Source of the DNA: Gemmatimonadales bacterium
Lineage (GTDB): Bacteria > Gemmatimonadota > Gemmatimonadetes > Gemmatimonadales > GWC2-71-9
DNA: 32,597 nucleotides
NCBI GenBank assembly: GCA_013140635.1
Contig: JABFSM010000261.1
Span: forward strand, 1 to 32,597
Reading direction: 5' to 3'
Position 1 is the first letter of the stretch; each line of letters opens with the position of its first letter. Made by a program: the position numbers and the translations under genes. Below are positions 4,838 through 30,120 of the stretch, one piece after another. The notes beneath the pieces were generated by a model. The model searched no databases, was not told the DNA's origin, and saw only the letters and a list, made by a program, of their open reading frames with translations.

Positions 4838-4896
4838 GTCATTGCGTTAGCCACGCTGCCGTCATTGCGAGGCCCCGAAGGGGCCGAAGCAATCTC
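4838..4896. repeat. REP-like palindromic repeat unit A (full unit 4861-4896) preceded by a truncated GTCATTGCG copy at 4838-4846
   Basis: gtcattgcga|ggcccc|gaa|ggggcc|gaagcaatctc; same architecture as units near 10.95 kb and 20.9 kb. Confidence 0.85.
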
Positions 4897-9575: not shown

Positions 9576-10916
9576 ATGTCTCCCCGTTACCCTGAGACAC
9601 ACGTCCTCTACCGAAACCTGGCCCGCGACTACCCCCTCATTGTCCGGGGGGAAGGGTGCTGGCTCTTTGACGCCTCGGGCCGGGCCTGGCTCGACGCCTG
9701 CGGCGGCGCCTACGTCGCCTGTCTGGGCCACGGCGTTCCCGATGTGGTGGACGCGGTGACCGAGCAGATTCGGCGGGTCAGTTACGTGAACGGATTGAGC
9801 TTCACGAACGAGGCGGCGGAGTCGCTTGCCGACGAGCTCGGTCGGTTCGCCGTCGGCGATCTCACCCAATTCTATTTTCTCTCGAGCGGTTCCGATGCCG
9901 TCGAAGCGGCGCTCAAACTGGCGCGGCAGTACTGGGTGGAGCGCGGCAAGCCCGAAAAGGATAGGTTGGTGGCCCTGACGCCGGGGTACCACGGGAACAC
10001 CCTGCTCACCCTCTCCGCCGGCGCGCGGGAGCACTATCGCACCTACTTCGAGCCGTGGCTGCTGCCGGTCGAGCGGGTGCCGGCGCCGTATGCCTATCGC
10101 TGCTCCTGCCGCGGCGAAGACTCCGCATGCCGCCGTTGCGGTGGCGGCGCGCTGGAGGATCTGCTCGACCAGGTCGGTGCGCACCGGGTCGCCGCTTTCC
10201 TGGCGGAGCCGATCGGCGGCTCCTCCACCGGCGCCTCGGTGCCCCGAGCGGATTATTGGCGGACGATTCGCGACATTTGCGACCGGCGCGAGGTCCTCTG
10301 GATTGCCGACGAAGTACTCACCGGCGCCGGACGGACCGGCACTTGGTCGGCGCTCGAGCCGTACGGCGCCATTCCCGACATCCAGGTGATGGGGAAAGGG
10401 ATCAGTGCCGGATATGCTCCGCTCGCCGCGGTGGCGGCGCCGCGGCGGATCGTGGATGTGCTCGCCCATGCCGGGAAGTCCCTGCTGCACGCCCAGACCT
10501 TTTCGCATACGCCGATGATGTGCGCCGCCGGCGTCGCGACGGTGCGCTACATCCGCGACCATGGCCTCGTGGCCCGGGCGGAGACGGTGGGTCGGGTGTT
10601 GCAGTCGCGGATGCGCTCGCTGCTCGATCACCCTCTGGTGGGAGATGTCCGCGGCCGAGGGATGCTCTGTGGCGTGGAGTTCGTGGCGGACCGAACGACC
10701 CGCGCCCCATTTCCGCGAGCGGCGCGCTTCGCGGAGCGGTTCATCGCCGCTGCGGAGGAGGAGGGGCTCATGGTCTGGCCCAATACGGGACATGCCGACG
10801 GTACCAACGGCGATCTGGTGATGGTGGCTCCGCCGTACATCATCACCGAGGCGGAAATCGACCAGATTGTGACGCGCTTTCGGAAGGCGCTGGAGCGAAT
10901 AGCGAATAGCGAGTAG
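9576..10916 (+). CDS. Class-III PLP-dependent aminotransferase
   Basis: 'SSGSDAVEAALKLARQYW', 'YHGNTLLTLSAG', 'IADEVLTGAGRTG', PLP-lysine region 'VMGKGISAGYAPLAAV'; last codons lie in the heptamer repeat. Confidence 0.92.
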   Translation: MSPRYPETHVLYRNLARDYPLIVRGEGCWLFDASGRAWLDACGGAYVACLGHGVPDVVDAVTEQIRRVSYVNGLSFTNEAAESLADELGRFAVGDLTQFYFLSSGSDAVEAALKLARQYWVERGKPEKDRLVALTPGYHGNTLLTLSAGAREHYRTYFEPWLLPVERVPAPYAYRCSCRGEDSACRRCGGGALEDLLDQVGAHRVAAFLAEPIGGSSTGASVPRADYWRTIRDICDRREVLWIADEVLTGAGRTGTWSALEPYGAIPDIQVMGKGISAGYAPLAAVAAPRRIVDVLAHAGKSLLHAQTFSHTPMMCAAGVATVRYIRDHGLVARAETVGRVLQSRMRSLLDHPLVGDVRGRGMLCGVEFVADRTTRAPFPRAARFAERFIAAAEEEGLMVWPNTGHADGTNGDLVMVAPPYIITEAEIDQIVTRFRKALERIANSE

Positions 10917-11035
10917 CGAACAGCGAACGGTCATTGCGAATAGCCAACGGTCATTGCGAGCGAAGCGAAGCAATCTCCCGAGATTGCTTCGGCCGCTTCG
11001 CGGCCTCGCAATGACGTAGCCAGTCTCGCAATGAC
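10895..11035. repeat. Composite repeat: degenerate GCGAATA heptamers (10895-10929), hybrid GTCATTGCGAATAGC (10930-10944), REP-like unit B1 (10950-10977), inverted unit B2 (10980-11015), truncated inverted copy (11024-11035)
   Basis: Direct reading; B1 and B2 form an inverted BIME-like pair. Confidence 0.85.
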
Positions 11036-20006: not shown

Positions 20007-20073
20007 GCTATTCGCTATACGCTTGTACTTCCCTCTTCCCTCTTCCCTCTTCCCTCTTCCCTCTTCCCTCTTC
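20007..20073. repeat. Composite heptanucleotide element: GCTATTCGCTATACGC (20007-20022) + (TTCCCTC)6 (20029-20070)
   Basis: Six perfect 7-bp copies counted directly; abuts minus-strand stop at 20072-20074. Confidence 0.95.
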
Positions 20074-20998
20074 ACGCTTCACAAATCTTCACCGCCTCCG
20101 CCAGCGACGCCAACGGGTCTCGAGACGGCATGAACTCGTGTGCGACATATCCCTGGAACCCGGCGTCGGCGATCGCCTTACAGACTGCTGTGTAGTTGAG
20201 CTCCTGGCCCCCGTCGATTTCGTGGCGCCCCGGCACTCCTCCGGTATGGAAGTGGCCGATATGAACGAGATTGTCGCGGATCGTCCGGATCACGTCGCCT
20301 TCCATGATCTGCATGTGGTAGATGTCGTAGAGCAGCTTCACCCGAGAGGAGTTGACGGCGGACACCACCTTCACCCCGAAAGCGGTGTGATCGCCCATGT
20401 AGTCTTTGTGATCGACCCTGCTGTTGAGCAGCTCGACGCACACGGTAACCCCATGCCGCTCCGCCGAGGCCTTGACGCGATTGAGGCCGGTGATGCAGTT
20501 GGCGGCGCCCTCCTCATCGCTCCGGCCTTTCCGGTTCCCGAACATCGCGATGATGTTGGGCACGCCCGCCGCGGCCGCGAGAGGGAGCGTCTTGTCGATT
20601 TCGTCGACCAGCATGTCGTGGAGCGAAGGATCGTTGAAGCCGGCGGAAAGGAAGTCCCGACGCTTGGATGGATATCCCATCGAACAAACCAGCCCCGCCC
20701 CCTTCACGACCGGCCACTCCTCCGGCTGGAGCAGGTCGACGGCCACGACACCCGCCGCCTTCGCCTTCGGCGCGAATTCCGCCAGCGGCATCCGTCCATA
20801 TGGCCAGTAGGACACCGACTGCTTGAGCCGTCCGGCGCGCCGATAGGCATTGCGAGGCGCCGGATGTGGCGCAGTCATCGCGAGGGGCGAAGCTGACCCT
20901 GTCATCGCGAGGGGCGAAGCCCCGTGGCGATCTCTCTCCCCGCCCACCACCGCGGCCCCTACCACGCCGAGCATTTCCCGCCGAGTCATCTCACGCAT
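20072..20998 (-). CDS. Sugar phosphate isomerase/epimerase (hydroxypyruvate isomerase-like TIM barrel), Tat-type signal
   Basis: 'MREMTRREMLGVVGAAVVGG' Tat-like; 'GVVAVDLLQPEEWPVVKGAGL', 'CVELLNSRVDHKDYMGDHTAFGVKVV', 'LLYDIYHMQIMEGDVIRTIRDN', 'IGHFHTGGVPGRHEIDGGQELNY'. Confidence 0.87.
   Translation of the reverse strand: MREMTRREMLGVVGAAVVGGERDRHGASPLAMTGSASPLAMTAPHPAPRNAYRRAGRLKQSVSYWPYGRMPLAEFAPKAKAAGVVAVDLLQPEEWPVVKGAGLVCSMGYPSKRRDFLSAGFNDPSLHDMLVDEIDKTLPLAAAAGVPNIIAMFGNRKGRSDEEGAANCITGLNRVKASAERHGVTVCVELLNSRVDHKDYMGDHTAFGVKVVSAVNSSRVKLLYDIYHMQIMEGDVIRTIRDNLVHIGHFHTGGVPGRHEIDGGQELNYTAVCKAIADAGFQGYVAHEFMPSRDPLASLAEAVKICEA
20874..20934. repeat. REP-like palindromic unit C (20901-20934) plus a truncated tandem copy (20874-20893), inside the CDS 20072..20998
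   Basis: gtcatcgcga|ggggc|gaa|gcccc|gtggcgatctc; tandem offset 27 bp; encodes duplicated ASPLAMT on the minus strand. Confidence 0.85.
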
Positions 20999-29344: not shown

Positions 29345-29354
29345 AACGCTACTT

Positions 29355-29437
29355 GCTATTCGCTATCCGCTAAGGTCTCTTGGCGAATAGCGAATAGCGA
29401 ATAGCGAATAGCGAATAGCGAATAGCGAATAGCGAAC
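29355..29437. repeat. Composite heptanucleotide element: GCTATTCGCTATCCGC (29355-29370), 12-nt loop, (GCGAATA)7 + GCGAAC (29383-29437)
   Basis: Seven perfect 7-bp copies; the left arm pairs with the first 16 nt of the array at 15/16 positions; abuts minus-strand stop at 29437-29439. Confidence 0.95.
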
Positions 29438-30120
29438 TACAGCTTATGCACCGCGAAGTCCTGCACATGCACGTCGAGGTGGTGGTTTACCCGAAGGCCG
29501 ACGATTCCACCGACATTCCCGCCCGGCGCATCGATCTCAGCAATTTGCTTTCCATTCACCGTAAAGGTGAGCTTCTTGGTGGTGGCGTTTCCCGTGACCT
29601 CGATCACGTTCTTCGACTGACCGTTACCATCTTGTTTGACCACAGCGTCGCTCGGCAGCCAGCCGTTGACGTCTCCGCCGGTCGTGAGATTCTTCGACCG
29701 GGCGCCGACCGCGCCGCCCTGACGGATCGTGTACATCCCATCACCCCGCACGATCAGGTAGACGTACGCCGCCGTAGACTTGTCGAGGTCCTTTCCAGCC
29801 ACGAAGAGTCCGAAGGCCTCGGGATGCGCGGGAGCCTTCGTCTGATGGATCGTGGCGATCGTGTGGAACGAGCCGGTCGCGGCGTCCGCCGCACGGTAGA
29901 AGATGCCCGAAGGACCGGTGGTGATATGCCAGCCGGGGGGCATACTTACGAGTTTGAGCGTGGCCAGAGAGGCGGTGGCCAGGTCGAGCCGAGCCGACCA
30001 ACCTGCCGGAAGCGTTCCAGTCCCTGCAACGTTCTTGTCGGGGTCCGACGGCTTGCCCCCCTGCGCCGCCAGGGGCGATACGACAAGGGCGGCCAGGGTC
30101 AACAACGACATGGTGCGCAT
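29437..30120 (-). CDS. Secreted protein of unknown function, possibly concanavalin/LamG-like fold
   Basis: Signal 'MRTMSLLTLAALVVSPLAAQG'; 'FTVNGKQIAEIDAPGGNVGGIVGLRVNHHLDVHVQDFAVHKL' resembles laminin-G/DUF1080-like C-termini. Confidence 0.65.
   Translation of the reverse strand: MRTMSLLTLAALVVSPLAAQGGKPSDPDKNVAGTGTLPAGWSARLDLATASLATLKLVSMPPGWHITTGPSGIFYRAADAATGSFHTIATIHQTKAPAHPEAFGLFVAGKDLDKSTAAYVYLIVRGDGMYTIRQGGAVGARSKNLTTGGDVNGWLPSDAVVKQDGNGQSKNVIEVTGNATTKKLTFTVNGKQIAEIDAPGGNVGGIVGLRVNHHLDVHVQDFAVHKL

Follow-up and report, generated by a model that had tools for sequence, protein, structure and literature searches.

For decades bacterial heptamer repeats have been described but not traced to an origin, and genes annotated as "four helix bundle" or "S23" are present in many genomes without a function. 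Intervening sequences (IVSs) of the 23S rRNA with the S23p gene have been described as selfish elements, and the 23S IVS of Coxiella has a stem formed by a 28-bp inverted repeat and, beside the S23p gene, two to three tandem GACAGAT heptamers that vary between strains (PMC4990558). Regarding intergenic heptamers, GGGAATC in Xanthomonas and GGGGATT in Nostoc form arrays in dozens of copies, with 70-75 inverted heptamer pairs in Xanthomonas that are located mostly near the 5' neighbouring gene; as a rule, no association of these heptamers with mobile elements was observed (PMC4692102). Proteins of the family PF05635, the intervening-sequence proteins (IVPs), resemble the Avd protein of diversity-generating retroelements (DGRs) (PMC10053308), and, going by the title of Lin et al. 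(2006) as cited in PMC10053308, the IVP four-helix bundle forms pentamers in Xanthomonas. Avd-dependent homing of DGRs requires a hairpin/cruciform near the stop codon of the target gene (PMC3240598). A literature search, outside of which most subscription journals lay, returned no report that connects PF05635 genes with dispersed hairpins made of heptamers, beyond the heptamers of the Coxiella IVS.

The locus considered here lies in a stretch of 32,597 nucleotides from a Gemmatimonadales genome (assembly GCA_013140635.1, contig JABFSM010000261.1), referred to below as the window. It contains a heptamer array which is probably one arm of a gene-less, MITE-like member of a hairpin family, the full-length members of which carry a PF05635 gene between the same inverted heptamer arms. 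Like the 23S rRNA IVSs of Coxiella and Leptospira, the elements that carry an IVP gene have an inverted-repeat stem with the PF05635 gene in the loop; unlike these IVSs, the elements described here are located between protein genes, their arms are long heptamer arrays and most copies are gene-less. The window copy is situated between two protein-coding genes, outside any 23S rRNA helix, and its 12-nt apex holds no PF05635 gene, which among copies with the GCGAATA unit was found only on contig C204. As with the STRR heptamers, the family in the window is tandem, intergenic and dispersed in many copies; what is added here is the link to PF05635, and IVP genes on cyanobacterial plasmids bear such arms. 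The first-pass annotation had pointed to the presence of STRR-type heptamers in a genome seemingly unrelated to the cyanobacteria; the likeness to the cyanobacterial repeats holds, but the puzzle is better answered by the PF05635 link, PF05635 genes being flanked by heptamer arms both in this genome and its relatives and, further afield, in other phyla and on plasmids of cyanobacteria. The TAACTGA repeats of Beggiatoaceae are also dispersed, intergenic and patchy in their phylogenetic spread, however, they are located mainly 5' of start codons, are almost all direct and are without hairpins (PMC4679880).

The hairpin between two convergent genes

The gene-less element at positions 29345-29436 occupies the whole convergent intergenic gap, from the TGA of an upstream gene encoding an extracellular solute-binding protein (PF13416; 28250-29344, plus strand), which closely precedes the left arm, to the TAG of a convergent gene (29437-30120, minus strand), which abuts the right arm and encodes a product of 227 aa without a Pfam match. 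The hairpin thus spans the gap between both stop codons, and its placement between convergent genes had been correctly annotated. The (GCGAATA)7 array of the first-pass annotation is real, TRF reporting 7.7 copies of GCGAATA with 100% matches at 29383-29436. This right arm (plus strand) comprises seven perfect copies followed by GCGAA, and the minus-strand stop codon (CTA, 29437-29439) begins with the C which turns this end into GCGAAC, a unit of the type that is enriched at the ends of arms. The segment at 29355-29370 (GCTATTCGCTATCCGC) is complementary to 29383-29398 at 15 of 16 positions across a 12-nt loop, as had been noted, but the left arm is longer than the start at 29355 implied; it begins at 29347 and runs to 29370 (minus strand) as degenerate inverted heptamers of TATTCGC (TACTTGC, TATTCGC, TATCCGC), and the inverted repeat I8 of the window has its arms at 29347-29374 and 29379-29406. 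The 12-nt apex at 29371-29382 (TAAGGTCTCTTG) has related, near-palindromic counterparts in other copies (TAAAGGCCTTTG, TCAAAAGCCTTG, TAACAGCCTTTG). The predicted RNA fold of the hairpin has 26 pairs in the main stem and a free energy of -43.5 kcal/mol compared to -24.3 kcal/mol for shuffles (z = -6.2), and the minus-strand fold has z = -5.9. A search of the window against Rfam detected no rRNA, and no known RNA family was matched by the hairpin.

Regarding other repeats, the doubled GCGAATA unit has 13 matches with up to two mismatches in the window, against 0.17 expected. The second array of GCGAATA type, at 10895-10922 (plus strand), provides the stop codon of a class-III aminotransferase gene (9576-10916), which terminates within the array. 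At 20009-20073 a TATTCGC/TATACGC pair is followed by (CTTCCCT)6.6 at 20028-20073, and the CTTCCCT unit also flanks a PF05635 gene on contig C296 of the same genome. The window further contains a second dispersed intergenic palindromic repeat (CGTCATTGCGAGG...CCGAAGCAATCTC) at 4860-4896, 10980-11016 and 20867-20920, the sequence of which is unlike the heptamers; two of its copies are 95% complementary and located 6 kb apart.

A dispersed family of gene-less hairpins

Counting of GCGAATA loci across the genome, as had been suggested from the window, gave 267 exact matches of the doubled unit (183+84), and the hairpin pattern had 62 matches, some of them overlapping, while the reversed controls of both had none. 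At least 40 hairpins of the plan found in the window, (TATTCGC)n, a 12-nt apex and (GCGAATA)m, are dispersed in the genome. In 864 kb of contigs, a set enriched for GCGAATA matches, 44 two-armed clusters were found, two of which (C24 and C63) are one sequence at overlapping contig ends, and the order was always TATTCGC-type, apex, GCGAATA-type. The usual size in 31 clean cases is four to five units, an apex of ~12 nt and again four to five units. Units of GCGAMC type were detected at 26 of 78 terminal compared to 7 of 326 internal positions, and this enrichment, scored by a rule which favours variants at ends, suggests that the elements have defined ends. Unit variants do not covary between the two arms (13 shared vs 15.2 expected), which gives no sign of compensatory evolution, so that the arms pair because their units are identical and not through selection acting on variant positions. 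The genome is a fragmented MAG, 93% complete, in which some contigs end in arrays, and exact copy numbers are therefore unsafe; an assembly artefact was rejected on the grounds that the flanks of many copies are unique and that closed plasmids have the same architecture.

The longer arms consist of uninterrupted perfect units, which is the expected outcome of slippage, and in many bacteria a period of seven is over-represented (PMC4692102, PMC4679880). Both would fit ordinary simple-sequence heptamers of STRR type which arose from slippage of the polymerase and do not derive from any element; slippage alone, however, yields neither a pair of inverted arms around a conserved apex nor ~40 unlinked copies, nor the coupling to PF05635 genes with matching units, and this explanation is considered very unlikely.

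Most of the hairpins start a few nt 3' of the stop codon of the upstream gene, in tandem as well as in convergent gaps, the gene starts near the hairpins being approximate as they were taken from a simple codon-usage caller. This placement, together with the location of the window element between two stops and its strong fold (z ~ -6 on both strands), would also suit a bidirectional terminator or a protector of mRNA 3' ends, the stem of which was enlarged by slippage and retained as an insulator of convergent genes. Two hairpins (L143:2673-2815 and L144:1600-1745) have long, terminator-like loops enclosing a further hairpin and then TTTT, and in Rhizobiales the sequence enclosed by a copy can include a hairpin and a T-run, which would be in keeping with such a role. 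However, neither arm of the window element is followed by a T-run and terminator-like sites were not called there, which makes the terminator reading weak; furthermore, the same elements are also present between co-directional genes, the copies are far fewer than gene ends, and the occurrence of IVP-gene units in all heptamer arrays and of IVP genes between such arms is left unexplained. Of the termination role emphasised in the first-pass annotation only the location fits, and an origin of the arrays as terminators or end protectors is regarded as unlikely.

Inverted arrays at PF05635 genes and matching units

The cluster G000:C204:5352-5955 has the arms (TATTCGC)5 and (GCGAATA)15 at a distance of 458 bp, and the insert encodes a PF05635 protein, a 23S rRNA intervening-sequence protein (TIGR02436, four helix bundle) with 2gsc (XCC0516) as the nearest solved structure. 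The window copy, with its inverted heptamer arms and 12-nt apex, shares unit and orientation with this IVP copy, TATTCGC standing first both in the gene-less hairpins and in the IVP element of this genome. All four PF05635 genes of the genome are bracketed by short tandem arrays in inverted orientation, and the unit differs from gene to gene (GTAGGTCG/CGACCTAC; TATTCGC/GCGAATA; GGGAAGA/TCTTCCC; ATTCAGG/CCTGAAT); the unit in the arms of the third recurs in the window's other heptamer array (20028-20073). Regarding the comparison with MITEs, the arms are common to the gene-less copies and the IVP element, but the IVP partner encodes no known transposase.

Inverted arrays of 7-8-nt units flank PF05635 genes beyond this genome. 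Complementarity between the 350-bp flanks was scored with a threshold of 33 and with mispaired flanks as the control. In this genome and its relatives 29 of 33 PF05635 loci scored at least 33 (mispaired control median 19, 99th percentile 32), while among size-matched genes of this genome only 3 of 212 reached 33, of which two are IVP genes. In 14 genomes of other groups (Elusimicrobia, Bacillota, Rhizobiales, Bacteroidota, Chloroflexota and Kaiserbacteria), 18 of 30 loci scored at least 33, mostly with a period of 7 (control 99th percentile 28), and at the other 12 the arms were weak or absent by flank score. Sixteen plasmid loci, 15 cyanobacterial and one from Gemmatirosa, all in circular complete records, included 13 with scores of at least 38 and 15 with a visible arm pair, the units including AGGGAAC, AGGGAGT and AGGAGTC; since several of these plasmids share related units, the mispaired control was inflated (99th percentile 55), and the visible tandem arms were therefore taken as the evidence there. 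In several plasmids the arm begins within ~10 nt of the upstream stop codon. PF05635 genes with inverted arms were also detected inside CRISPR-Cas operons, in Anabaena pANA02 (L300), Pseudanabaena pPg_01 (L304) and a Picosynechococcus plasmid (L309), the placement being cas6-cas4 twice and cas10-cmr3 once.

The gene-less arrays match the units of resident IVP genes. All perfect arrays (three or more copies) located away from IVP genes in the 864 kb of contigs, which were selected for GCGAATA only so that other units are unselected, have the unit of an IVP arm or a one-base variant of it (30/30 heptamer and 5/5 octamer arrays), and the match also holds in 394 kb of contigs not picked by matches. 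One gene-less octamer hairpin (L180:4982-5035; GGTAAGTC.../CCGACCTA...) shares its unit with the IVP gene at C204:3342, which has octamer arms. Predictions from the IVP arms of two further genomes held. The unit TATTGGC, from the arms of relative G007, had 90 matches in G007 with close inverted pairs, while 15 of 18 other relatives had none and three had 1, 4 and 12; this genome, the unit of which is one base different, had 46. The unit TAGGTGT, from the IVP arms of G050, had 31 matches in G050 and none in its two congeners. Reversed control patterns match often in some IVP-rich relatives (G014, G018, G024 and G009), with ~50 matches per strand in G014 and G024 and with GGTTATC-type matches in G009, which has similar IVP arms, and this suggests additional families of heptamers. 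Across 50 loci the similarity of IVP proteins and that of their arms were modestly correlated (Mantel r = 0.20, p = 0.0005), and the relation between period sharing and IVP similarity was borderline (p = 0.047). GCGAATA arrays are also present in genomes without a detected PF05635 gene (10 of 24), which counts against the proposed family.

In having dispersed extragenic palindromes at gene 3' ends and a presumed partner gene, the family is reminiscent of the REPIN-RAYT duo, in which REP/REPIN-type palindromes are moved by a RAYT (Y1 tyrosine) transposase, and both REPINs and MITEs likewise include gene-less palindromes that share ends with a gene-carrying copy. Unlike in those systems, no known transposase belongs to the elements here; a four-helix-bundle protein is their partner, and they end in tandem arrays with a locus-specific unit. 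As the gene beside the repeats is PF05635 and a Y1 transposase (PF01797, Y1_Tnp) was not found in the 93%-complete genome, a RAYT/REPIN origin was rejected as highly improbable.

Gain or loss of the elements and a proposed role of the IVP

Regarding the spread of the unit, a GCGAATA pair was detected in only 1 of 36 genomes of the same family and a triple in 1 of 394 further genomes of the phylum, and inheritance of the unit within the clade was rejected on these counts; the unit is nearly absent in relatives and has therefore expanded recently in this genome. GCGAATA is also used in Rhizobiales, where it stands first in the gene-less hairpins (54 downstream partners, 0 upstream) and likewise in the IVP elements L255 and L258. 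Horizontal transfer from Rhizobiales is disfavoured, because the arm order is opposite and the IVP with GCGAATA arms in this genome is closest to that of G007, the arm unit of which (TATTGGC) differs by one base.

In genus g40 the arms of the IVP element L238 are repeated in several species with 30-72 matches per genome, and the 18 copies examined are gene-less palindromes of ~200 bp made of the L238 arms. At the L238 site of G039 the IVP element occupies the gap between the stop codons of two convergent genes, and in G122 the two genes abut and the element is absent; the element is inverted in G304 and partial in G387, and G159 has unrelated DNA there. The site shows gain or loss and rearrangement between related genomes and indicates no mechanism, the single empty site (G122) being too diverged to define a target-site duplication.

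For the gene-less, MITE-like family with PF05635-carrying members, the proposed mechanism would start with the IVP protein (four-helix bundle, Avd-like), which may recognise or bind hairpins of its own unit and, together with a host nuclease or polymerase, could promote copying of the hairpin to sites just 3' of stop codons. The gene-less copies would use the IVP in trans, slippage would lengthen and shorten the arms, and effects on termination or on mRNA ends, if any, would be secondary. The hairpin near the stop codon in DGR homing is a suggestive parallel to the elements of the window; unlike in the case of DGR Avd, no match to a reverse transcriptase (PF00078) was found in the 93%-complete genome, and retro-mobility via a resident reverse transcriptase was set aside accordingly. 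By analogy with the IVSs of rRNA (PMC4990558), processing of the hairpin RNA by RNase III is likely.

In a wider and more tentative reading, PF05635 proteins may be trans-acting mobilisers of an unrecognised, widespread class of hairpin elements, of which the heptamer repeats of cyanobacteria, Xanthomonas, Rhizobiales and this genome would be gene-less copies and the 23S IVSs would be landings in rRNA.

Thus, because paired arrays flank the PF05635 family across many phyla, the heptamer repeats appear to be copies, devoid of the gene, of an element that has been little studied and is probably mobile. The data link heptamer repeats to S23/IVP genes, with predictions that held in two further genomes, and both the origin of the repeats and the function of the genes are now testable. 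If the IVP mobilises or maintains the hairpins, this would be a selfish system which does without a transposase, is related to Avd, the accessory protein of DGRs, and acts at the 3' ends of genes.
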